Origin: a virus
IMG/VR virus record: IMGVR_UViG_3300043446_003778
Span: 1 to 33,037 of that record
DNA: 33,037 nt
Strand: one strand, 5' to 3'
Both the position numbers and the translations under genes were made by a program. Below are positions 1,043 through 30,652 of this stretch, in pieces. The notes under the pieces are model-generated. The model was not told the DNA's origin, made no database searches, and worked only from the letters and a program-made list of their open reading frames with translations. Position 1 is the first letter of the stretch; each line of letters opens with the position of its first letter.

Positions 1043-1816
1043 ATGCCAACGAGAACTATATCAACCTTGCAAAACAATCAGGTGCTTGACAATACGCACG
1101 GCTTAGTGTTGTCGTCGGGCGGCAAGGCCGTGAAGATTTTCAACATCGAGGGGTACGTCAACGGCGGTACGACTTCGACCAAGTATTACTTGCAGTTATT
1201 TGCGCGTACGGATTTCCCGTCCAACGGTGATGTGCCGTTGCGTTCATTGCAAGTGCTTGGTGCAAATGGTTTCACTTTCGCTTATCAACCCACTGGGTTG
1301 GATGCAATCACGTTGGGGACGGGCAGCGGTAATGATCTGACTTTCCCCAACAGCGGGGATTTGATCATCGTGGCAAGCAGCACCGAAGCTACGTTCACGG
1401 CGGTAGCGGCCAACGTGGATGTCAGCGTGGATATTGAGCAGTATGAGCAGGAGCAGCGGGGGTTGTTGCAGGTGGCCGATACTGCTGTCAACGAACTGAG
1501 CATCTGGTCAGATTCTGCGGCAAACTGCAAAAATCGTTTACATTCTGGAGTGTTCGTCAACACTGAAGCAATTGCCCGCTACATCATGTTGTTTGCGTAT
1601 GCTTCTCCCGCCACCGGAGCAACGCCCATCTGCCAATGGACACTGCCTGCCAGCGGTACGGTGAATCTTAATTTCGGCGATAATGAATCTGTTTTTTCTG
1701 TCACTTCCGACGGAGTGAAACATTATGGCTGCTACTTCGAGATCAGCTCAACGTCCGGAACATTCACATCTGATGGTGCGGTAGACGTCACAATCAACTA
1801 CTATTCCCAACAATGA
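1043..1816 (+). CDS. putative virion structural protein, unknown family
   Basis: 257 residues, preceded by a good ribosome site (AAGGAAA just upstream of the ATG at 1043). The protein is almost entirely beta-type sequence: short Thr/Ser/Gly-rich strands, no long helices, no membrane segment and no signal peptide. It ends in NYYSQQ. It lies between the adaptor and the LamG-like protein, and its stop overlaps the start of the next gene (ATGA, 1813-1816). The composition resembles phage tail or capsid-decoration proteins. I do not recognise a specific family, so 'structural' is an inference from composition and position. Confidence 0.55.
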   Translation: MPTRTISTLQNNQVLDNTHGLVLSSGGKAVKIFNIEGYVNGGTTSTKYYLQLFARTDFPSNGDVPLRSLQVLGANGFTFAYQPTGLDAITLGTGSGNDLTFPNSGDLIIVASSTEATFTAVAANVDVSVDIEQYEQEQRGLLQVADTAVNELSIWSDSAANCKNRLHSGVFVNTEAIARYIMLFAYASPATGATPICQWTLPASGTVNLNFGDNESVFSVTSDGVKHYGCYFEISSTSGTFTSDGAVDVTINYYSQQ

Positions 1817-3255
1817 AATACCTAATTGCGTTATTGATGACAGCTACCGCCTGCGTAGCTGGCCCATTAGCTGGTCCGTATCCTACTGGTGGCGGGAGTG
1901 GTGCTGGGTTTGATGGTAGCTATGGCGGCACGGCCACGTTTGGTGGTGTGACCAGCACCAACGACTTTGTCGGCAAAGCCAGACTGACATTGGGGACAAC
2001 GCAAAGCGATGCCGCTTCTGGCGCATTTGCCGCTAACGGTATTGGCGTGTACAACACAGGCGATGCCCACGTTTGGGCATGGTCTATTGGCGTGTCTAAC
2101 GCAACTCAAGATTTGCGTATCATCGAGCAGTATGTCGCTATGCATAAGAGCGCGGCAGACGCGACTCGTTTGGCAGCTTGTACCTACGGTTTGGACGGCG
2201 ACGGCACGATGTTTTTTTCGCACAACAACAACTGGGCTGGGCTTTCTACTGGAACTGGAAATGCCATTTTTAAGTGGGTCAATAACCAAAGCACTTATCC
2301 TCATGCCAATCTCATGGCATCAACGAACGGCAATATGTGGATCAGCGGAAGTTACTACGGCGACGGTTCTCAATTGACTGGCATCTCTGCAGGTACGAGC
2401 GCAGTTGGTCTTCTTATTACCAACGGATTGTTATATGATTTGGATTTTGAGGCTGGTCTCATCAACAAGAAGACTTGGTTGATGGCGACCAATAATTCCA
2501 GCGCAAACAATCCATGCATCCTGACCAACGGCGTGTATGGAAATGCGGTGCATTTTGACGGCAACAACGACCTCAAGCTGCAACCCAATACCCGTACCCT
2601 GATGAACAGCAACTTCACCATGACGGCGTGGGTGAAAGGTTCTGCAGATCGTTGGATCTATGCCACCGGCCCAGCCGCCAATGGAACTGAAGTCATCTAT
2701 GTCAGCACCGGCAATCTTCGTCTGTACGACTACACCAGCGCAACAGCATTGACCACCAGCGGCGGTACATTGTCTGATGGCAAGTGGCATTTCGTGGCCT
2801 GCACTCGCAACTTTGGAACAAACATCTCCATGATGGTCGACACCACTTGGACGAATTTCACTACTGGTTTTGCTTACAACTCGACGGCCAATACGCCCAA
2901 GTTGATGCACGATTACGGCGACACCGCGCACAAGTGCGAAATCGATAACTTCCAATATTACGATTACGCTTTGTCCCAGACAGACATACAGAACATCCGT
3001 GACGGCATTGCGTATTACAGCACAGCTACTACAGTCTACACCATTGCCACCACAGGCTGGACAAACACGACTACGGCCAACGCGCAAGTCAATTGGACTG
3101 GCACTGGCACAACGGCAACCATCAAAAATCCGGCCAACACAACGATGTACACAAGCGCATCCACCACCGGTGGCAGCTATGTGTTGCCTCCTGGCTGGGC
3201 GGTGACTCTTTCGGGAACTGGCGTGGCTGGCACTGCCTACTCCTTGAATAGGTGA
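1813..3255 (+). CDS. LamG-like (concanavalin fold) protein with signal peptide, tail-fibre-like
   Basis: 480 residues. Residues 1-16 form a typical signal peptide (MKYLIALLMTATACVA, with a likely cut after CVA). A Gly-rich linker and beta region follow. Near residues 181-192 is YYGDGSQLTGIS, a motif often seen in phage tail fibres. Residues about 205-398 match the LamG/concanavalin jellyroll pattern (GNAVHFDGNNDLKL, FTMTAWVKG, DGKWHFVACTR, IDNFQYYDYALS). The last 75 residues form a small Thr-rich beta domain. LamG domains usually bind sugars, so receptor or surface-polysaccharide binding is likely. A cleavable signal is unexpected on a virion part, because virions assemble in the cytoplasm. 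The protein could instead be exported to the host envelope. Confidence 0.65.
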   Translation: MKYLIALLMTATACVAGPLAGPYPTGGGSGAGFDGSYGGTATFGGVTSTNDFVGKARLTLGTTQSDAASGAFAANGIGVYNTGDAHVWAWSIGVSNATQDLRIIEQYVAMHKSAADATRLAACTYGLDGDGTMFFSHNNNWAGLSTGTGNAIFKWVNNQSTYPHANLMASTNGNMWISGSYYGDGSQLTGISAGTSAVGLLITNGLLYDLDFEAGLINKKTWLMATNNSSANNPCILTNGVYGNAVHFDGNNDLKLQPNTRTLMNSNFTMTAWVKGSADRWIYATGPAANGTEVIYVSTGNLRLYDYTSATALTTSGGTLSDGKWHFVACTRNFGTNISMMVDTTWTNFTTGFAYNSTANTPKLMHDYGDTAHKCEIDNFQYYDYALSQTDIQNIRDGIAYYSTATTVYTIATTGWTNTTTANAQVNWTGTGTTATIKNPANTTMYTSASTTGGSYVLPPGWAVTLSGTGVAGTAYSLNR

Positions 3256-3259
3256 TACC

Positions 3260-3472
3260 GTGCATGGTAAACTAAAAAGAGGGGCATACAAGAAACCGAC
3301 CATGAAGAACGACCACGATGTAGTCTTTGGGTTTTTGACTAGTGCAATCACGTTTATCGTGAGTCATTTCAATGCAATAATCGGTGGCTGCATCGGCGTG
3401 ATATCGCTCGGCATAATGCTGTTACGCCTACGGCGTGAATGGAAACACCGCAACGACCCACCTGAATCATGA
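3260..3472 (+). CDS. small two-helix membrane protein, candidate holin
   Basis: 70 residues from GTG 3260, with AGGTGA four bases upstream. There is an in-frame ATG at 3302 (Met15). Two hydrophobic segments are visible at about residues 22-36 (VVFGFLTSAITFIVS) and 40-56 (IIGGCIGVISLGIMLL), followed by a strongly charged tail (RLRREWKHRNDPPES). Size, two helices, charged tail and a position before a lipoprotein gene fit a class II-like phage holin. The optional 14-residue basic N-terminal extension recalls dual-start holins, where the longer form delays lysis. Its stop overlaps the next start (ATGA). No sequence family is recognised, so holin is an inference. Confidence 0.5.
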   Translation: MHGKLKRGAYKKPTMKNDHDVVFGFLTSAITFIVSHFNAIIGGCIGVISLGIMLLRLRREWKHRNDPPES

Positions 3473-3648
3473 ACGAAATACCCGGCCTCAACCTGTTGCC
3501 CGAAAAGATTCGCGGCCCAATCGCATTTGTACTTTTGATAAGCCCGTACATCACCCGAGCCTATCACGCCATCGTCAATGGTGGCGGCCTTCGTGGAGTG
3601 ATCAACGCTATTTGGTTTGGCACTAATGTTCCAAAGGATAAACAATGA
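3469..3648 (+). CDS. small membrane-associated protein, unknown (59 aa)
   Basis: ATG 3469 overlaps the stop of the upstream gene and TGA 3646-3648 overlaps the next start, so this frame fits exactly between two coupled genes. The product has one hydrophobic stretch (GPIAFVLLISPYI, about residues 16-28), then a Gly turn (NGGGLRG) and a second, weaker amphipathic segment (VINAIWFG). The tail is basic (PKDKQ). Similar short proteins occur near lysis and tail genes in other phages, but I know of no assigned function. An accessory holin or antiholin role is possible from context only. Confidence 0.6.
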   Translation: MNEIPGLNLLPEKIRGPIAFVLLISPYITRAYHAIVNGGGLRGVINAIWFGTNVPKDKQ

Positions 3649-4028
3649 ATCATGTCATCGCTTCGTTCTGTCTTGCAGTTCTGTTGGTTGGTTGTGCAGG
3701 GACTTCTGTGGGGGTCTCTGGTAATTCCGATAGTGTGTCTGCTTCTGTCGGTGTGCCTGTTGGCTCTGCTATTGTCACTGCTACTGGGCAGATCAACCCC
3801 CAAGACCCATCCCAATGGGAAGCGGGGATCGTCGTGGTATTCAAGTCACCGCCTTCCGCCGAGTCGTTGACCGCTTTGGCATCCGCCAATGCAGTAGTCG
3901 CCAACAACGACAACCAGAAGTTCTTTATCGCCCAAGCGCGTTCGCTCATCAAAGCTGACGCGGTGACGGCGGCGGTCACGGCCTGTTTGCATGACGGTGC
4001 ATCCATCTACACCATCACAAAAATATGA
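3645..4028 (+). CDS. phage lipoprotein, unknown function
   Basis: 127 residues. The N-terminus has a short hydrophobic run ending in a lipobox (LVGC, lipidated Cys17), so the mature protein should be a lipid-anchored, probably periplasmic protein. A Ser/Val/Gly-rich linker follows (residues 20-45), then a globular part with alternating strands and an Ala-rich helix (about residues 75-115). Both ends overlap neighbours by ATGA. Its place after two small membrane proteins is where an outer-membrane spanin subunit might sit, but at 127 residues and without the usual Pro-rich stretch it does not look like a classical Rz1-type spanin. The function is open. Confidence 0.65.
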   Translation: MNHVIASFCLAVLLVGCAGTSVGVSGNSDSVSASVGVPVGSAIVTATGQINPQDPSQWEAGIVVVFKSPPSAESLTALASANAVVANNDNQKFFIAQARSLIKADAVTAAVTACLHDGASIYTITKI

Positions 4029-4756
4029 TCGATCACTCCCTTCATGTGGGATTGAATTCTGTAGACCCGGCCAGCTATAACAACTGGTCGGGTTTTTTGA
4101 ATGCCTGCCACAACGATGCGGCTGGACTTGCCATCATGGCATCCCGCGTCGGCAGTACCGCATGGGGATTGAACACATCCGACACGGAAAAGAATCTACC
4201 AACCATCGCCAACTTCAAGGAGCAGGTCGCCACCTTGGCGGACATCACCAAGCCGGGGGAACTCGCCATGTTGTCTTACAGCGGCCATGGAGGTAGCGAC
4301 CAGTGGGGTGAATCGCTTTGTTTGTACGACGGCCTGCTGTACGAGCATGAACTCCGCAGCCTGCTGGCAAAGTTCAAGGAGGGGACGCGGTGGATATTTG
4401 TGCTGGATAGCTGCCACTCGGGTGGGTTAGATCGGGGTTTCATGTCACCCGCCCACCGTGCCGCACCGAGAGCCGCGTTGCGCGTTCAGGACGCGCCGAA
4501 GGCGTGGCCGTTCTCCGAGGCCGTGATCCCGTCCTCCGGCGTCCTTCTATGTGCCTGCCAGCCCGCCGAGGTCGCCTACGACGGTGACCAGTTCGGGGCG
4601 TGGACAGGCTCGTTGCTCCGTGCTTGGCCGGACGGTACAATCGGCCATACCGCGCAGACTTGGTTTGACCGCGCCTACGATTACTGTCCCGAGACTCAAC
4701 ATCCTGTGCTGCGGTTGCTTGGACAAAACCATGACTGGTTGCATCGTGCAATTTGA
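4025..4756 (+). CDS. caspase/metacaspase-fold cysteine peptidase (peptidase C14-like)
   Basis: 243 residues, the length of one caspase-like core. The N-terminal strand and loop (LHVGLNSVDPASYNNWSG...ACHNDA, residues 6-31) match the family start. The catalytic His is in YSGHGG (His88) and the catalytic Cys in LDSCHSGG (Cys130), the metacaspase form of the motif. A later strand (LLCACQPAEVAYD, 174-186) and GAWTGSLLRAW (191-201) match the conserved end of the domain. Both catalytic residues are present, so activity is plausible. There is no signal peptide or extra domain, so it should be cytoplasmic. It is the last gene of an ATGA-coupled cassette with two small membrane proteins and a lipoprotein. 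Substrate and role are unknown. The second half of the gene is noticeably more GC-rich than the first. Confidence 0.85.
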   Translation: MIDHSLHVGLNSVDPASYNNWSGFLNACHNDAAGLAIMASRVGSTAWGLNTSDTEKNLPTIANFKEQVATLADITKPGELAMLSYSGHGGSDQWGESLCLYDGLLYEHELRSLLAKFKEGTRWIFVLDSCHSGGLDRGFMSPAHRAAPRAALRVQDAPKAWPFSEAVIPSSGVLLCACQPAEVAYDGDQFGAWTGSLLRAWPDGTIGHTAQTWFDRAYDYCPETQHPVLRLLGQNHDWLHRAI

Positions 4757-4790: not shown

Positions 4791-7451
4791 ATGGCTTACA
4801 TCGCATTACAGAACTTCAACCGTGGGCTGGATAGTCGCAGATCAGAACTGACTTCCGCCCCCGGCACGTTGTCGCAATGTGAGAATGCCCATATCACCGT
4901 GGGTGGTGAGGTTGAAAAACGGAAAGCGTTTGTCGCTCAACGGTTCACAGATTCTAGCACAAAGCTCACCATGACTGTGGGAAGTACCACGGTAGACACG
5001 TCAACTACTGTTGCTAACTACTACAAAGTCAGTTGGAGTTTTGCGGAATTGGCTCTGAATTACGTCACAGTCGGGGCAACTACACAATTAACTTTTGTTG
5101 ATGCTTTCAGTTATGATTATGTAGCAGGAGACCACATCTGGATTGATGGTTTTACTGGTTCGTACGCCGCTATTAACGGATTGCATTACGTCACCGCTTG
5201 TGATGGGTATACCGTAACTATCGACTACAATAGCCTTGCTTTAACTTCTGGCAGTGCTTCTGGTTACATTTCACTACCTTTCACGCGATTGGATGGTTTT
5301 CGTAGTACTGCGTTAGGCAGACAAATGTTCACTAGTGATTATTTACACCACGGTGTGGTAGTTGCCGTAACTGACCAGATTGGCGCATCAGGTTATTACA
5401 AAACGGCTGTCCTTTATTCGGCTGATCCGTTTTGGGGAACGGCTACTTTTACCGCAGGCACTACTCTTTATGGGGAATTGTTTATCGGGGGATTGCAAGC
5501 TACTGACAGCGGATTGACTGTATTTACAAATAGCGGCACGACCATCACGAACACGAGCGTGATAAAACAAACGCTAACCAACCCCATCAACAGCAACTGG
5601 AAGCTGTACGACATCGTCACCTCCTGCAATTTTGGCGGCAAAGCATGGGTGGTCGCAAAGTTCTTCGACAGCACAACGGCATCGTACCCTGATGTGTTCG
5701 ACAGCATCAGCTACGTTTTCTATGATGGTGTTGCCTTGGGAGAATGGTGGGAGGGCTATCTCATCACGACGGCAAATTATCTGTCGCGGATGAAGGACAT
5801 CATTGAAGCCATCCCCGGCTTCACTACGGCCAATTATCTTGCTTCGACCACGGCCACATCAGGACTATTGGTCTCTAACCGCACATACAAAATCACCAAC
5901 TACGTCAGCGGTGATGACTTCACCAACATCGGCGGCACAAACACCACTGGCACAGTATTCACGGCTTCAGGTACAACTCCGACAACGTGGACACACAGTT
6001 CTACTCTTGTCAGCGAAGGTTACTTCGACGTGTATGCCGACTACGGCCTAGCTTTTTCTGTCGTCACTTCCGTTGTGTCAGGCACAACTACTGGCTACAC
6101 GGCGACCAAGATTGCAGGTTCAGTTGAACCTACACCAGGCTATGGCGCAGCCGCGCAATTCAAGATGACTGGCGGCACTTGCGACACACAGATCACCATT
6201 ACCGGCTTTACCAAAGGGGCAACCACAGTATATTTGGCCGCAGGTCATCAATACATTGTTGGTGACTGGGTTTACGTTTCTGGCTTTACCGGTGCGAACA
6301 CCGCGTTGAATGGGTTGAAACTCATCACCGCTATCAGTGCTGGTGTGTCATTCACCATTGCTTACGATAGTTCTGCGCTGACATCCGCCTCAACCACTGG
6401 CACATCAGCTATCCGTCCGGCTGGGCTGTTGTCGTTGCAAGTCGTCACGCCTTCCGCGACCTACTCGTTGTTCAACAACAACAGTGGAACAACCCCGCTG
6501 GCAATGCTTACCAACACTGGTGACGATGCTTCAAATGCGGAAAACTTTGCTGCGTATGTGGTGGCGACCATCAATGCGTATGCCGCGTCAACTGCCAATG
6601 GCTACACGGCCAAGAACAACAAGAACCAAATCGCCATCTACGCCGACCCTGCATTGGGGGTCGATGGCAACAAAGCCACGCTGGCTGTCACTACTATCAA
6701 CGATTGCTGCACCGACACAGTTGCTGTGCTGTTTGATGATACGACAGCTAGTGCAAACTGTGGCCCAATCACGCTTACAAAATATGATGGCACTACGGTT
6801 GATTTGCTAAATGGGACTACTGTCAGTTCTACCAACAGTGGTTCTTCGATGGCAAAAGCAGTGGCCGCAGAAATCGCCAAGCATCGCGCCACTACCGGCT
6901 ACACCGCAGCATACGTCCAACTGGTGGATACTTCCACCGGAGCAGTCGTTGTAACCCACAATGTGGTCATTTCTTCCGTGGTGCGTAACAGTAACGACCC
7001 GCAGCCAAAGAAAATCACGGTGACTTCTGCGGGGAGTACCGCAGTGATACAAGGCGGTTACGTCGGCAACGGTGTGTTTCCTACGGCAGTGATTGTGACT
7101 GTGGATGATTTTAACTATACTGCCGACAAGGGTTCACGCATCACAGTAACACCAAAACACGCTGGCGGCCAACCGGCTTACGCTTTTTACAACATATCTA
7201 TAGATACTTCTGGGCTGTACACTAAGCTCGTGGGTGGAACTTATGTCCAAACCATCACGGGATTTACCTATTATGTGACCAACGGAAAAGATGGATACAC
7301 TTTAACTTTGATTCCGCCCTTTCCGTCTAGCACTGGAGGCACGACACAAATTCAAGGTACATTGTTTGGGGTTGTAAAATATAGCGTAACTTCTAAGGAC
7401 TCGGTAGGCCAATTAGGCACAAGTAATACAGGAACGATAACGTACAAATAA
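4791..7451 (+). CDS. tail nozzle protein, N-terminal part, with inserted fibre-like repeats
   Basis: 886 residues. The N-terminus (ALQNFNRGLDSRRSELTSAP, then CENAHITVGGEVEKRKAF) is the characteristic start of podovirus nozzle proteins (the T7 gp12 / tail tubular B type). The expected propeller blades then appear in the next ORF rather than here. Much of this ORF (about residues 90-870) is Thr/Ser-rich beta sequence, including two copies of a ~65-residue unit (residues 94-160 and 475-541) and a segment often seen in tail fibres (TYKITNYVSGDDFTN, 365-379). The ORF ends TAA, one base before the ATG of the downstream part in another frame. It is probably one subunit of a two-chain nozzle, or an ancestral gene split by insertion. 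Confidence 0.6.
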   Translation: MAYIALQNFNRGLDSRRSELTSAPGTLSQCENAHITVGGEVEKRKAFVAQRFTDSSTKLTMTVGSTTVDTSTTVANYYKVSWSFAELALNYVTVGATTQLTFVDAFSYDYVAGDHIWIDGFTGSYAAINGLHYVTACDGYTVTIDYNSLALTSGSASGYISLPFTRLDGFRSTALGRQMFTSDYLHHGVVVAVTDQIGASGYYKTAVLYSADPFWGTATFTAGTTLYGELFIGGLQATDSGLTVFTNSGTTITNTSVIKQTLTNPINSNWKLYDIVTSCNFGGKAWVVAKFFDSTTASYPDVFDSISYVFYDGVALGEWWEGYLITTANYLSRMKDIIEAIPGFTTANYLASTTATSGLLVSNRTYKITNYVSGDDFTNIGGTNTTGTVFTASGTTPTTWTHSSTLVSEGYFDVYADYGLAFSVVTSVVSGTTTGYTATKIAGSVEPTPGYGAAAQFKMTGGTCDTQITITGFTKGATTVYLAAGHQYIVGDWVYVSGFTGANTALNGLKLITAISAGVSFTIAYDSSALTSASTTGTSAIRPAGLLSLQVVTPSATYSLFNNNSGTTPLAMLTNTGDDASNAENFAAYVVATINAYAASTANGYTAKNNKNQIAIYADPALGVDGNKATLAVTTINDCCTDTVAVLFDDTTASANCGPITLTKYDGTTVDLLNGTTVSSTNSGSSMAKAVAAEIAKHRATTGYTAAYVQLVDTSTGAVVVTHNVVISSVVRNSNDPQPKKITVTSAGSTAVIQGGYVGNGVFPTAVIVTVDDFNYTADKGSRITVTPKHAGGQPAYAFYNISIDTSGLYTKLVGGTYVQTITGFTYYVTNGKDGYTLTLIPPFPSSTGGTTQIQGTLFGVVKYSVTSKDSVGQLGTSNTGTITYK
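5070..5270 (+). repeat. protein-level repeat unit 1 inside the nozzle ORF
   Basis: Encodes residues about 94-160. The unit has the pattern GATTQLTF...YVAGDHIWIDGFTG...AINGLHYVTA...YTVTIDYNSLALTS. The same pattern returns at 6213-6413 with clear amino-acid similarity but diverged DNA, so this is an old duplication of a small beta domain and not a recent DNA repeat. Confidence 0.7.
6213..6413 (+). repeat. protein-level repeat unit 2 inside the nozzle ORF
   Basis: Encodes residues about 475-541 (GATTVYLA...YIVGDWVYVSGFTG...ALNGLKLITA...FTIAYDSSALTS) and matches unit 1 at 5070-5270 position by position. Such small beta modules are often swapped among phage tail proteins. Confidence 0.7.
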
Positions 7452-7452
7452 T

Positions 7453-8664
7453 ATGGCTGTAACCTCCGACATCCCGTTCGCGTTCTCTGCTCAATCCTTT
7501 AGCGGCGGACAAACGCTTGGTGTTGGCCGTGGCGATACTTGGCGCATTCGCATCACCGGACAGGGCGCAACCGACGACAGACTCAAGTTGGATTTTGTCG
7601 ACAACGGCAGCAACACCGTCTTGGCGGCAGGCGATGTCATCGGCTCTGCCCCGCTGTCAGCTATCGCGTTGAACAACCGCGTGTATTACATCAGCGGCAA
7701 CACGCTGTATTTTTCCGCCCTTGGCGACCCGACACAATTCGAGACCCAGGGCATCGGTGCTGGCTTCATCGACATGAGCAACAACTTTGCTCAAGCTGAA
7801 CCCCTCACGGGCATTGCGTCCTACCAAGGCAAGCTGGCTATCTTCGCCCGCAATAGCGCACAGATCTGGCAGATCAGCCCAGACCCTGCTGGGTTTGCCC
7901 AGATACAAGTCCTGCCGAACACCGGCACGATGGCATCGAAGTCGGTCAAGAGCATCGGCGACCTCGACGTGATCTACCTGTACGACACGGGTATCCGTTC
8001 CCTGCGGGTTCGGGACAGCAGCCTGAACGCGGTGCTGGTCGACGTTGGAACTCCGATAGACACGCTCGTGCAGGACGCGCTCTCGGGGGCTACGAGCTAC
8101 GCCAAGTCCACGGCTTGCGCCGTGGTCGAGCCGACGGGCGGGCGGTACTGGCTGTACCTCGACGGAACAATCTACGTCCTCTCGTACTACCCCAGCGCGA
8201 AGATTGTGGCGTGGTCAACTTATCTGCCAACTTACCAAAGCGGCTCGGCTCAATACGAGTTTGTGCCAGCCAAGTTCGAGGTCTACAACAACCAAGTGTA
8301 CGCCACCGATAACGTCGCCTTGTTCACCTACGGCGGCACATCCGGCACTACCTATGACAACGCCGTCGCCACGGTGCAAGTACCGTTCTTCGACATGAAG
8401 CGGCCAGCGCACAACAAGACCGCCGGTGGGATCGATGTCGACCTTTCCGGCTCATGGAACGTCGCCTGTTCACCAGATTGGATTGACGACAACATGATCA
8501 CCGCCTTGCAGGCGCAATCTACTCCAACCTTCGACAAGGGTTGGATTCCGTTCAACGCTACCGGTACGCATTTCACGTTCTACGCGCAGACCACCGGCTC
8601 GACGGCGGCCAAGATTTCCCAGCTCACTCTGCATTACCAAACCAACGACTCCCCATTTGAATGA
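7453..8664 (+). CDS. tail nozzle protein, C-terminal beta-propeller part
   Basis: 403 residues. The sequence carries the familiar run of podovirus nozzle blades: LNNRVYYISGNTLYFSALGD (residues 74-93), AGFIDMSNNFAQAEPLTGIA, GKLAIFARNSAQIWQ, QVLPNTGTMASKSV, DVIYLYDTGIRSLRVRDSS, then GGRYWLYLDGTIYVLSYYP. In relatives known to me these blades are in the same chain as the NFNRGLD-type N-terminus, which here is in the previous ORF. The ATG at 7453 follows the previous stop by one base and lies in a different frame. Its role is the lower tail tube that closes the DNA channel. The end overlaps the next gene by ATGA. A stretch at about 7960-8210 is much more GC-rich than its flanks. Confidence 0.75.
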   Translation: MAVTSDIPFAFSAQSFSGGQTLGVGRGDTWRIRITGQGATDDRLKLDFVDNGSNTVLAAGDVIGSAPLSAIALNNRVYYISGNTLYFSALGDPTQFETQGIGAGFIDMSNNFAQAEPLTGIASYQGKLAIFARNSAQIWQISPDPAGFAQIQVLPNTGTMASKSVKSIGDLDVIYLYDTGIRSLRVRDSSLNAVLVDVGTPIDTLVQDALSGATSYAKSTACAVVEPTGGRYWLYLDGTIYVLSYYPSAKIVAWSTYLPTYQSGSAQYEFVPAKFEVYNNQVYATDNVALFTYGGTSGTTYDNAVATVQVPFFDMKRPAHNKTAGGIDVDLSGSWNVACSPDWIDDNMITALQAQSTPTFDKGWIPFNATGTHFTFYAQTTGSTAAKISQLTLHYQTNDSPFE

Positions 8665-16593: not shown

Positions 16594-16979
16594 ACATCAA
16601 GATCGACATCATCGACCACAAGAAGCAACGCTACGACACCGTAGGCGATTGGTATTACGATGCCAACGGTACGTTGCACATCCATGTGTCCAAGCTGGCT
16701 GATGGTCGGCATGAGCATTTGGTCGCAATCCACGAACTCGTCGAGGCTTTGCTCTGCGAAGAAGCTGGTGTCGATGAGGAGGATGTGACAGCGTTCGACT
16801 TGGTCTATGAAGCCAACCGCAAGGCGGGCGACACATCTGAACCCGGCGACAGCGTGGCTGCGCCTTACTACAAACAACATCAAATCGCCACGGGCATGGA
16901 GAAAATCCTCGCTGCCCAGATGCACGTCGATTGGAACAGTTACGAGAGGGACATCAACCAACTTGTATGGAAGACCTGA
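16590..16979 (+). CDS. small protein with HExxE motif, unknown
   Basis: 129 residues from GTG 16590, overlapping the previous stop (GTGA). The first 40 residues form beta strands (KIDIIDHKKQRYDTVGDWYY, TLHIHVSKL). A helix then carries HLVAIHELVEALLCEEAGV, with His74/Glu75 and Glu78 in an HExxE pattern. An acidic segment (DEEDVTAFDLVYE) and further His residues follow. The motif could bind a metal ion, but it is not the full HExxH zinc-protease motif. Related short proteins occur in phages without assigned function. It is joined by a 13-base overlap to the ATP-grasp gene. Confidence 0.55.
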   Translation: MNIKIDIIDHKKQRYDTVGDWYYDANGTLHIHVSKLADGRHEHLVAIHELVEALLCEEAGVDEEDVTAFDLVYEANRKAGDTSEPGDSVAAPYYKQHQIATGMEKILAAQMHVDWNSYERDINQLVWKT

Positions 16980-18232
16980 AAAAGAAAACAGTCTGCTTCG
17001 TCGATAACGGCCTGTTCGTGTCGTTCGCTCGGCACGTTGCGCCAGCCTTCGGGCGGTGCTTGTACCACCGGCCTTTCCAATCCGCGTTCGTCCGGACGCA
17101 CGACCTGTCACCGGGCGCGGGGTTCCCCGAACTCGAGTGGTGCCGCGACCCCCTGGCGGTGGTCGACGAAGTCGACCTCTGGGTGTTCCCCGACCTGTAC
17201 CAAGTCGGTCTCCAGCTCCACCTGCGCGACATGGGTTGCCGCGTCTGGGGGGCGGGGGCGGGCGAGGAGATGGAGCTGGAACGCTACAAGTTCAAGGAGT
17301 ACCTCAAGAAGGTCGGCCTGCCGGTGCAGAAGTGCGAGCAAATCTTCGGATTCGACAACCTCCGCAAATACCTCAAATCCGCCAAGGGCAAGAAGTACGT
17401 CAAAACATCCTTCGTGCGTGGTGACTTTGAGACGTTCGGCGCAGACAGCTATGAGTCCTGCCAAGGCCGCATCGACCACATCGAGTACCTTGTCGGGGCA
17501 GCCAACAAAGACACCTATGAATTCGTTGTCGAAGACGCCATCCCTGACTGCGTGGAGATCGGCTACGATGGTTTCACCATCGACGGCAAGTTCCCCGACC
17601 TAGCGATGCAGGGATACGAAATCAAAGACTGCGGCATGGTGGCTACGGTTAAACCCTACAACCAGTTGTCCGACCCAGTCAAGCTGGTGAACAGCAAGAT
17701 GGTGGATGCCTTCAAGACTTACGGCTATCGTGGATTCTTCTGCACGGAAATCCGATACACCAAGGACAAGAAACCTTACTTCATCGACCCATGCTGCCGC
17801 CTCGGCACACCGAGCAACGAACTATTGCAGGAACTGTTCGGCAACTGGCCGGAAGTCTTGTGGTATGGCGCGGAAGGCAAGCTAGTCCCGATGAAGCAGA
17901 AGGCCAAGTATGGCGTTCTCGCCATGATTAACTCCGAGTGGGCGCAGCAGAACTGGCAACGTGTCGACTATCCCAAGGAACTCGACCCCCATGTGAAGCT
18001 GCGTTTCCATTGCCGCGCCAAGGACGGTGGCAACTATATTGTCCCACAACAAATAGGTCTCTCCGATATCGGTTGTGTAACCGGTACGGGAGAGACCATT
18101 GCTGCCGCCATCAAACAGTGTCAGGAACGGGCTGCCCAAATCAAGGGCATCCAGATCAAGGTGAACACAGAGGCACTTGATGAGGGGCTGGAAGTGATTG
18201 CTGCGGGGAAGAAGTTTGGGATCGAGTTTTAG
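16967..18232 (+). CDS. ATP-grasp ligase, phosphoribosylglycinamide-synthetase-like
   Basis: 421 residues from ATG 16967; a longer reading from TTG 16931 is less likely because it would overlap more of the gene before. The first ~95 residues look like the Rossmann-type pre-grasp domain. The ATP-grasp part starts at ERYKFKEYLKKVGLPV (about 105-120), with KGKKYVKTS (140-148) as the ATP-binding strand, a VVED strand (187-190), and YFIDPCCRLGTPSNEL (271-286) in place of the usual metal-binding loop. The last ~80 residues resemble the C-terminal domain of glycinamide ribonucleotide synthetase. In the family a carboxylate is joined to an amine with ATP; the substrate here cannot be told. Bases ~17,040-17,330 are very GC-rich. 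The 3' end overlaps the convergent helicase gene by 77 bases. Confidence 0.7.
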   Translation: MEDLKKKTVCFVDNGLFVSFARHVAPAFGRCLYHRPFQSAFVRTHDLSPGAGFPELEWCRDPLAVVDEVDLWVFPDLYQVGLQLHLRDMGCRVWGAGAGEEMELERYKFKEYLKKVGLPVQKCEQIFGFDNLRKYLKSAKGKKYVKTSFVRGDFETFGADSYESCQGRIDHIEYLVGAANKDTYEFVVEDAIPDCVEIGYDGFTIDGKFPDLAMQGYEIKDCGMVATVKPYNQLSDPVKLVNSKMVDAFKTYGYRGFFCTEIRYTKDKKPYFIDPCCRLGTPSNELLQELFGNWPEVLWYGAEGKLVPMKQKAKYGVLAMINSEWAQQNWQRVDYPKELDPHVKLRFHCRAKDGGNYIVPQQIGLSDIGCVTGTGETIAAAIKQCQERAAQIKGIQIKVNTEALDEGLEVIAAGKKFGIEF

Positions 18233-25788: not shown

Positions 25789-27189
25789 TTAGACTTTAGC
25801 TAGTTGTTTTTGGATGTCAATAGACAATGTTAAGAATGCTTTGGCTGCTGTGGCTGGGACGACTCCGTTGCCGAGGAGACGGAGTTCATCAGTTCGATTG
25901 TCACCGGAGACGCACAGCTTGGCATAGTCCAGCCCACAGGAAGACCCATCAGAGTTTCCACCCAGCGTGGGTTGAGTTTGCCGTTGTTCCTGTTCCACGC
26001 ACCAGTCTGTTCCACTTCCGTCTGGCTCGGCAGATCCGTTGATTTGCCGTTTCGGATCATTCGGCCTTCCGCTCCTTTCGCATCCCTGCTCTGTGGCGTT
26101 GCCCACGCCTTTACCTGCCTGTCCAGCTTTGGCGTCATGCTCCCGTCCTTCTGGCGATGCGCTCCGGTTGATACCGTTGCAGTCGCCCACGACGCGGGGC
26201 GGCTCCCATTCACCTTCTGGTAAATCTCCACCGACATCGGGTCTACCTGCTCCCGCAGATTTGACGGAGCAATCCTTCCGGCTCTCGCTCCGGTTGCTTG
26301 TTTCCAAACCCCCTCCGGTGTCCGTGTGTCCAGATGGTCGAGGGTATTTGGCGTTGCCCACGCCTTCGGGTTCGTCCCCTTGATTTCCTCCGCAAACACC
26401 TGGTCCACCGTTAGCATTTGCGTCTGCGCCTTCTCGCCGCTGACCAATGCCTTCACCACTTGACGGTGCGGAGTCATACCTCGGTTGTTCGTCCCCGGCG
26501 CAAAAGTCTGCCAGTTTTGAGGGGACTGCTCCAACAACCCTTGGCGGCTCCCATCCGTGCTGGGGTTCGCCGGGGCGGGAGGGCCATACATCACAACCGC
26601 CTCCAACGTATCCAGACGATGCTTCCCATCCTTCCTTTGCACCGCATTTCCACAACCCTTCCAATCCCGAGCTGCCGATGTCGGCCATGATGAACACCCG
26701 CTTCCGCTGGTGCGGTGCGCCGACTTCAGCCGCGCTGAATATTCCCCACGCCGTTGTGTAACCAATGCTTTCCAGTTCTTCAATGACGTTTCGGAGTCCA
26801 AGGCTGATGTGTCCTTCGACGTTTTCAAAGAAGCAGACTCTTGGTCGCATAGCCCGAATTCCATCTGCAATCCACGGCCAGAGATGTCGTGGGTCGTCTT
26901 TTCCGAGTCGCTTTCCGGCGGAACTGAATGGCTGGCAGGGATACCCTCCAGAGAGGATGTCCACCTTTCCACGAAACTCTGCCCAAGGGAAGGTTTTAAG
27001 ATCCGACCAGATAGGTGCTGCGTCCAAGAGTCCCGCTTCCATTTTTGCAACCAGGTTCGCAACGGCGAAACCTTCGATCTCACTAGCAGCGATGCAGCGC
27101 AGACTTGGCATGATTCGTTTGAGTCCAAGGTCAATGCCTCCGTATCCAGAGCAGAGGCTAACGTGTGTAATTGTTTTGGTAGTATCCAT
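25789..27189 (-). CDS. DNA cytosine-C5 methyltransferase (larger)
   Basis: 466 residues. Motif I SLCSGYGGIDLG (11-22), catalytic GGYPCQPFSSAG (81-92, Cys85), FENVEGH (121-127), GAPHQRKRVFIMAD (157-170) and the C-terminal LRLLGNGVVPATAAKAF (436-452) are all intact, so it should transfer methyl groups from S-adenosylmethionine to cytosine C5. The region between motifs VIII and IX, about 175-420, is unusually Gly/Asp/Pro-rich and low in complexity for a target-recognition domain (for example VGNAKYPRPSGHTDTGGG). The same DNA stays open in the +1 frame (25,830-27,194). Its likely role is to protect phage DNA from host restriction. The target sequence cannot be told. Confidence 0.9.
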   Translation of the reverse strand: MDTTKTITHVSLCSGYGGIDLGLKRIMPSLRCIAASEIEGFAVANLVAKMEAGLLDAAPIWSDLKTFPWAEFRGKVDILSGGYPCQPFSSAGKRLGKDDPRHLWPWIADGIRAMRPRVCFFENVEGHISLGLRNVIEELESIGYTTAWGIFSAAEVGAPHQRKRVFIMADIGSSGLEGLWKCGAKEGWEASSGYVGGGCDVWPSRPGEPQHGWEPPRVVGAVPSKLADFCAGDEQPRYDSAPSSGEGIGQRREGADANANGGPGVCGGNQGDEPEGVGNAKYPRPSGHTDTGGGLETSNRSESRKDCSVKSAGAGRPDVGGDLPEGEWEPPRVVGDCNGINRSASPEGREHDAKAGQAGKGVGNATEQGCERSGRPNDPKRQINGSAEPDGSGTDWCVEQEQRQTQPTLGGNSDGSSCGLDYAKLCVSGDNRTDELRLLGNGVVPATAAKAFLTLSIDIQKQLAKV

Positions 27190-29609: not shown

Positions 29610-29712
29610 TTTTTGTTTTGGTTTTGTTTTTGTTGCCGAAAATGTTGTCCCAGTTTTTGTTGAACGTCTTTCGGTCTTTGACTGGGCGTTGGCGTGATCC
29701 TTTTCCGTTCAT
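29575..29712 (-). CDS. MNGKGS-type short phage protein (45 aa)
   Basis: ATG 29712 overlaps the methyltransferase stop by ATGA and has GGAGG about eight bases upstream, a good ribosome site for this block. The product begins MNGKGSRQRPVKDRKTFNKN and continues WDNIFG, then a basic, Asn/Lys-rich tail. Small proteins with the N-terminus MNGKGS and a WDxIFG segment are widespread in phages, with no agreed function. An alternative longer frame over the same bases (to 29884) is a shadow. Confidence 0.75.
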   Translation of the reverse strand: MNGKGSRQRPVKDRKTFNKNWDNIFGNKNKTKTKNETSKNNHRRY

Positions 29713-30320
29713 AATGTTTCCTCCATTGCGAGGCAGACATCCAACGCCAAAGCGTACGGAATCTTTGCTGCCGTTGCGCTGTCCATACCTTGTGTCCCAG
29801 TGGTCGAGCCGCGAGGCGCACGGTCATGGCACGGCATACCATTCTTGCATGGTGCTTTAAGCACCAGGCTGGGCGGAAATGCACCCCACAAATCAGTCGG
29901 TTTCATCCGGCGTTCGCCGTACTGGCAGTAGGTCACATTCCTCCGCTCGAGGTGAGCTAGATGCGGCATCCTCCTCATTTTGCCGACAGGATTCTCGAGG
30001 ATGAAGTGCCTCGGATTGATAGCTTGGATGACCTCAATTGTCCTGGTCAATAAGCGCAGGCCGAGCAATGCCTTTTCATTCTTGGGCTGATGGTCGTGCG
30101 TCCAGTTCCGGCCTATTTGCATCACACTGAAAGCGGTGCATGGCGGCGATGACAGCACGATGTCGGGCTGCCATGGCAGTTGTGACGGGTGGAAGTCGAA
30201 GATGTCCCGATGTTCCGCAGGAAATCGGGGATTGAGTTCGACCCGGTAGACATTGTGACCGCGTTCGCGAAATGGAGTCGACCAACCTTCGAGGCCGGAG
30301 AACAAATCGAGTACGTTCAT
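29709..30320 (-). CDS. compact DNA cytosine-C5 methyltransferase
   Basis: 203 residues from ATG 30320, which overlaps the exported-protein stop by ATGA. Motif I is MNVLDLFSGLEGWS (1-14), the catalytic loop SSPPCTAFS (57-65, Cys61), then FILENPVGKM (106-115, the ENP variant of motif VI) and QYGERRMKPTDLWG (133-146, in place of motif VIII). The final IPYALALDVCL replaces the usual motif X helix. At about 200 residues it is shorter than most enzymes of the family, but it matches a known phage group that lacks a separate recognition domain. Probably protects or marks phage DNA. A second, unrelated enzyme of the family lies at 25,789-27,189. Confidence 0.85.
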   Translation of the reverse strand: MNVLDLFSGLEGWSTPFRERGHNVYRVELNPRFPAEHRDIFDFHPSQLPWQPDIVLSSPPCTAFSVMQIGRNWTHDHQPKNEKALLGLRLLTRTIEVIQAINPRHFILENPVGKMRRMPHLAHLERRNVTYCQYGERRMKPTDLWGAFPPSLVLKAPCKNGMPCHDRAPRGSTTGTQGMDSATAAKIPYALALDVCLAMEETL

Positions 30321-30652
30321 TTCACGTCCCCCACGATGCGTTGAAAGTTGCTTTTCCAGTTGCGGTTGCCCACAGCATCGGCAGATGCTGGACACCACCT
30401 ATCAGCCATAAAGTCTCCGAACCGACCAGGCCGTCCGGCGGTTTCCCACCGCTTGTAGTTGTTCTTTATGCTCACAATGCAAACCCTACGCGGGTCTTTC
30501 GTCCGGACGCTCAGCACACCGTAAGGGTGTCTGGTCTTCGCACCACCCTCGATGCGGTAGATGCCGTCCGCGATGCGGTTCAGGTCGGGTTCACTCAAAG
30601 CCGCGCAGGCGCAGCCTGCCGCGCACAGGGATATCAATAGATGCTTAATCAT
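30317..30652 (-). CDS. exported small protein, conserved in phages, unknown
   Basis: 111 residues. The first 18 form a signal peptide with three Cys near its end (MIKHLLISLCAAGCACAALS), one of which sits in a lipobox-like setting. The mature part has IYRIEGGAKTRHPYGVLSV (31-49), a basic helix (CIVSIKNNYKRWETAGR), and FMADRWCPASADAVGNRNWK (81-100). This set of motifs recurs in short exported phage proteins of unknown function. It is encoded among cytoplasmic early genes and coupled by ATGA on both sides. A superinfection-exclusion or cell-surface role is one possibility, unsupported by sequence. Confidence 0.65.
   Translation of the reverse strand: MIKHLLISLCAAGCACAALSEPDLNRIADGIYRIEGGAKTRHPYGVLSVRTKDPRRVCIVSIKNNYKRWETAGRPGRFGDFMADRWCPASADAVGNRNWKSNFQRIVGDVK

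Follow-up and report, generated by a model that had tools for sequence, protein, structure and literature searches.

A caspase-family peptidase encoded beside membrane-protein and lipoprotein genes in a phage structural operon, and its possible part in host lysis

The literature on bacterial caspase-fold proteases concentrates on their roles in host defence or programmed death, and a gene for one behind several small genes of a phage structural operon raises the question of what such an enzyme does for a virus. The stretch of DNA carrying this arrangement, called here the window, is the whole of the 33,037-base IMG/VR virus record IMGVR_UViG_3300043446_003778. From its letters, the original prediction had described a coupled cassette of two small membrane proteins, a lipoprotein and a caspase-like peptidase, the latter perhaps standing in for an endolysin.

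The four-gene cassette and its insertion site

Since the record is classed as linear, the window is possibly a fragment; its left end lies just ahead of the adaptor gene, and the terminase, portal and capsid genes are absent from it. The adaptor and nozzle genes are separated by a 3.7-kb insertion of six genes (1043-4756, Table 1). For the comparison of this junction we used 31 IMG/VR loci picked up with the C-terminal protein of the nozzle: wherever the junction was covered, the adaptor gene was directly followed by the nozzle gene and the insertion was absent, and none of the 31 records encoded a C14 protein. This absence from the junction-spanning relatives identifies the six genes as a lineage-specific accessory block, made of the 257-aa protein, the LamG-domain protein and the cassette. 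The LamG protein is likely a fibre or adsorption protein placed ahead of the cassette, and an ATGA overlap joins its gene to that of the preceding 257-aa protein.

Two observations concern the genes further downstream. The nozzle, which is a single ORF of 874-961 aa in the four relatives checked, is encoded in the window by two ORFs (4791-7451 and 7453-8664), through either a real split or a sequencing frameshift, and the first of them carries extra, beta-rich-looking sequence. A 421-aa protein encoded after the 1771-aa virion protein (16967-18232) has no family match and resembles, by eye, a ligase of ATP-grasp type.

The four genes of the cassette were recovered as predicted, all of them scoring as coding with self-trained codon usage and following each other through ATGA overlaps at 3469, 3645 and 4025. 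Such coupling was rejected as cassette-specific evidence: overlaps of 4 bases are common in the late operon (6 of 15 junctions, five with ATGA and one with GTGA), and alone they do not set the four cassette genes apart. The first product presents one clear transmembrane stretch, possibly a tight hairpin (best 17-aa Kyte-Doolittle mean 2.46), found no family match in Pfam and PHROG profile searches, and may act as a holin. Its gene has a possible dual start, the longer form gaining a basic N-terminal extension, for which the S107/S105 pair of phage lambda offers a parallel.

While the membrane label thus holds for the 70-aa protein, it is uncertain for the weakly hydrophobic 59-aa protein, whose matches to DUF7248 (Pfam E 0.011) and phrog_2401 (E 0.28) were below cut-off. 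The lipoprotein was confirmed by its lipobox and is devoid of a C-terminal transmembrane segment. As regards a spanin pair (inner-membrane coiled coil and outer-membrane lipoprotein) or a unimolecular spanin, no i-spanin was recognised in the cassette, and an Rz-like match to phrog_456 was weak (E 0.35). No holin or spanin family was matched by any of the three small proteins and no endolysin family by any of the four genes, and searches returned no significant relatives of the lipoprotein or of the 59-aa, 70-aa and 257-aa proteins. Compared with classical holin/endolysin/spanin cassettes, the one in the window has in common the small holin-like and lipoprotein genes, the overlapping starts and the place after a fibre-type gene, but it is without a recognisable endolysin or spanin pair and ends on a caspase-type peptidase.

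Table 1. Features of the window considered in the text, with the basis of each assignment.
Position	Strand	Feature	Basis
1043..1816	+	257-aa protein, family unassigned; first gene of the adaptor-nozzle insertion	No viral-contig relatives
1813..3255	+	480-aa protein with LamG/concanavalin-like domain and N-terminal hydrophobic signal-like segment	Pfam Laminin_G_3, E 1.5e-12
3260..3472	+	Holin-like protein, 70 aa (GTG 3260, AGGTGA upstream) or 56 aa (ATG 3302)	Hydropathy, charged C-terminus
3469..3648	+	Small protein, 59 aa, weakly hydrophobic (best 17-aa Kyte-Doolittle mean 1.32)	Sub-threshold family matches
3645..4028	+	Lipoprotein, 127 aa, signal peptide, lipobox LVG-C17, +2 Ala	Sequence signals
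4025..4756	+	Caspase-family peptidase (C14, GSU0716-like), 243 aa, without signal peptide	Pfam and PDB similarity
30317..30652	-	111-aa secreted protein, predicted lysozyme-superfamily fold, candidate peptidoglycan hydrolase	Signal-like N-terminus, model

The peptidase and its counterparts in other phages

The last gene of the cassette encodes a protein that matches Pfam Peptidase_C14 above cut-off (E 4.3e-13, residues 17-201). Among relatives of solved structure it is closest to GSU0716 of Geobacter, itself uncharacterised (PDB 3bij, E 4.3e-26), with a match spanning most of the 243-aa protein. By sequence, it belongs to caspase family C14 and within it to the prokaryotic GSU0716-like group (PF00656; orthocaspase/metacaspase-like), with which it shares full-length similarity, the SLHxGLNxVDP...W start, the YSGHGG and DSCHSG motifs, the catalytic dyad and the S1-pocket residues. 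His88 and Cys130, already singled out in the original prediction, sit in the SGHG and D-x-C-H-S-G settings and are invariant in the relatives. Structure prediction, which had been proposed as a check, was run on the single sequence with AlphaFold and proved uninformative (pLDDT 40); a caspase fold is predicted by homology to 3bij only.

For the metacaspase TbMCA2, an S1 pocket formed by Cys92, Asp95, Ser156 and Asp211 was proposed (PMC4357240). The window peptidase has C28, D31, S86 and D128 at equal motif spacings, and since all four equivalents are kept, cleavage after Arg/Lys is predicted for it. The enzyme differs from its GSU0716-like homologues, to which it is about 30-37% identical, by being phage-borne in a membrane/lipoprotein cassette, by a shortened loop after the catalytic His, and by the replacement of three nearly invariant Asp (columns 95, 107 and 108) by G95, E107 and H108. 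These are likely the columns of the Ca-site aspartates of TbMCA2 (Asp173, 189, 190 and 220), an equivalence based on motif spacing only, and if they do correspond to the calcium site, calcium control may have been lost in the peptidase. A tree built from 94 sequences places the window caspase on a very long branch, and this, with the changed loop residues and the lack of a signal peptide, means that its activity is not assured.

Single-sequence searches of viral and genome contigs returned no close relatives of the caspase, so that alignment searches were needed. These collected 71 IMG/VR loci with caspase genes, to which a second search added a few; caspase-fold genes are therefore not rare in phages. 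In bacteria, relatives occur on chromosomes and plasmids across many phyla. The six phage caspases closest to that of the window (L061, L062, L063, L064, L065 and L067) belong to its subfamily, and their surroundings uphold the likeness to a lysis cassette, since genes for endolysins, or for a holin-like protein and a lipoprotein, recur beside them. In L063, a small membrane gene, an 82-aa gene and a lipoprotein gene are followed by a TIGR02594 endolysin and the caspase, the last two overlapping by ATGA; in L064 the caspase comes behind an M15_4 endolysin, again with an ATGA overlap. These two caspases share with the window the subfamily and the direct overlap with lysis genes, but there the endolysin itself adjoins the caspase, and no homology was detected between their membrane proteins and lipoprotein and those of the cassette. 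In L061, a holin-like protein with two transmembrane segments overlaps a lipoprotein-like gene and the caspase follows, while L067 presents two small membrane proteins, the caspase and a protein that is lysozyme-like by eye (phrog_3108, function unassigned). The fibre-like proteins found before the L061 and L063 caspases resemble the window LamG protein by eye, and phmmer detected no homology between them. No endolysin adjoins the two remaining caspases, L062 having as neighbours a DUF1353 gene and one that resembles, by eye, a secreted nuclease, and L065 an endolysin far from the caspase. Among more distant caspases, lysis-like settings were found in L075 (SLT and holin-like neighbours) and in L127 and L113 (endolysins).

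In the tree, L063-L065 form one supported clade, and L061 and L062 arise elsewhere among bacterial sequences, from which it follows that phages acquired the gene more than once: judging from these branchings, the caspases of the window subfamily have probably been recruited several times from bacteria. L063 and L064, which belong to a common caspase clade, have endolysins of different families. A separate group, mostly of large phages (L079, L089, L097, L102, L114 and L119), presents the conserved gene order caspase, Hsp20, ClpS, and its existence indicates that the function of phage caspases is not uniform. This order ties a phage caspase to proteolysis adaptor genes.

To quantify the association, 50 caspase-bearing records were examined with seven endolysin families. 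Endolysin matches lay at 1 kb or less from the caspase in 4 of 14 cases (0.95 expected, P 0.011), and without the three cases that inspection by eye had already revealed, the count was 1 for 0.74 expected (P 0.54); in most of the 50 records no endolysin adjoins the caspase. Small membrane proteins are neighbours of the caspase at 14 of 66 loci (7.8 expected) and a lipoprotein gene lies just upstream of it in 4 of 50 (0.6 expected). All of them were chosen with examples already in view. The association that they describe is modest and partly post hoc; its best documentation comes from the subfamily of the window caspase, and for phage caspases generally it is suggestive.

On two bacterial plasmids (L055 and L059), caspase relatives adjoin cell-wall genes, a chitosanase and an L,D-transpeptidase in one case and a peptidoglycan-binding protein in the other. 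Metacaspases of bacteria have been reported that carry a fused Amidase_2 or peptidoglycan-binding domain (PMC3501461), and they provide an independent link between this class of enzymes and cell-wall breakdown. The open literature that we searched, with most subscription journals outside its scope, contained no article that deals with caspases as members of phage lysis modules.

Peptidoglycan hydrolases in the window and in a related isolate

Profile searches across the window found none of the known endolysin families, in agreement with the original prediction that it holds no classic endolysin. In Rhizobium phage RHph_N65, a related isolate, an endolysin is annotated upstream of the terminase, and we could verify that it is a GH108 protein; another lysin of this phage follows the injection genes. 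The region that would match the endolysin locus upstream of the terminase lies beyond the left end of the window contig. By tblastn, the RHph_N65 lysins were unmatched in the relatives and in the window, and no GH108 protein was detected in the IMG/VR relatives or in the caspase-bearing phages.

A candidate hydrolase is encoded at the other end of the window. The 111-aa secreted protein belongs to a family represented at 73 IMG/VR loci, in which Glu35 is invariant and for which no Pfam or PHROG match was found. Its AF2 model is confident (pLDDT 88). Sequence searches of the PDB gave nothing meaningful and Foldseek returned no significant match in the PDB or BFVD. A second structural comparison (VIA) ranked first the glucosaminidase domain of a Clostridioides endolysin (8yxk, 89 aligned residues, 3.2 A) with a Z score of 5.7, which is middling, the next match scoring 3.9. 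On the strength of the model, the protein is probably a hydrolase of the lysozyme superfamily, and its family a candidate new, apparently unnamed family of phage peptidoglycan hydrolases. This family was not found in the nozzle-related or caspase-bearing phages in a search run without a positive control. In the early region, two genes on the minus strand are cytosine-methylase-like, one by eye (25789-27189) and the other by Pfam/PHROG match (29709-30320).

What the peptidase may do for the phage

The explanation that we favour, although we would put it somewhat short of an even chance, is that the cassette is a lysis-associated module in which the caspase is an auxiliary protease working beside a separate peptidoglycan hydrolase. 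Its products would be, in gene order, the holin-like membrane protein, the 59-aa protein, the lipoprotein and a cytoplasmic cysteine peptidase of caspase type cutting after Arg/Lys. Along with the LamG-type fibre gene, the module would have entered the head-tail region of a phage that resembles a podovirus. The peptidase, synthesised late from a transcript shared with the membrane proteins, would assist the hydrolase in taking the host apart at lysis. Its targets would be proteins of the host envelope or cytosol, or a lysis protein, and it would cut them as the membrane opens or beforehand. The presence of the same kind of protease beside a cell-bursting enzyme in several unrelated viruses suggests such a helper and not a replacement.

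The main rival is a protease of host takeover or counter-defence, which would cut cytosolic host proteins, for instance defence proteins, and travel in a moron-like accessory insertion. We consider it unlikely, yet a serious contender: the insertion is absent from site-spanning relatives and its genes have no known relatives, the caspase lacks a signal peptide and weakly matches the PADLOC caspase model, and many phage caspases, including those of the large-phage group with Hsp20 and ClpS, lie far from recognisable lysis genes. What speaks for a function in lysis instead is the overlap of the caspase gene with holin-like and lipoprotein genes inside a structural, late-type operon, and that of its nearest phage relatives with endolysins.

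Two further roles seem improbable to us, to a similar degree. The position of the caspase between the LamG protein and a nozzle gene that is split here and whole in relatives would suit a protease that processes a protein of the tail, the fibre or the nozzle while virions assemble, but relatives have the same adaptor and nozzle without any caspase, and in other phages the neighbours of the caspase are lysis genes, not nozzle genes. A gene of host fitness (lysogenic conversion) or programmed death, acting outside lytic growth of a temperate phage, would fit with the integrases of the isolate relatives N65 and Mae-Yong1326-1 and with the chromosomal and plasmid location of bacterial caspase relatives in many phyla; against it, the caspase gene is overlapped within the structural operon with no transcription unit of its own apparent, and no integrase was recognised in the window.

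Finally, the idea in the original prediction that the caspase takes the place of the endolysin, and so brings down the envelope unaided, appears very improbable, in spite of the lack of known endolysin families in the window, because the contig is fragmentary, RHph_N65 keeps endolysins elsewhere in its genome, the window itself encodes the secreted lysozyme-fold candidate, the related caspases of L063 and L064 are coupled to recognisable endolysins, and a protein-cutting protease is not expected to open alone a sacculus made of glycan and peptide. That prediction was to be refuted by an endolysin elsewhere together with relatives whose cassette lacks the peptidase; relatives without the caspase were found, but the whole cassette is missing there. 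What we retain of it is the identification of a caspase and the resemblance to a lysis cassette.

Beyond this locus, the auxiliary lysis protease could be one case of a wider pattern, in which caspase-type peptidases are a recurrent and independently acquired component of phage lysis modules, supplying a proteolytic step, coupled to holin and endolysin, that takes apart host proteins or the envelope when virions are released and so executes the death of the host; we regard this generalisation as plausible but less likely than not. Virus-encoded caspases thought to act in host cell break-up are known from ascoviruses, whose executioner enzyme differs from the window peptidase in being a true caspase, of an insect virus and in an unrelated setting. 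If phages do repeatedly acquire caspases overlapped with endolysin genes, the enzyme class discussed in bacteria mainly for defence and programmed death would also serve the final killing step of infection, and the cassette would provide a defined genetic system for finding the first substrate of a large prokaryotic caspase subfamily.
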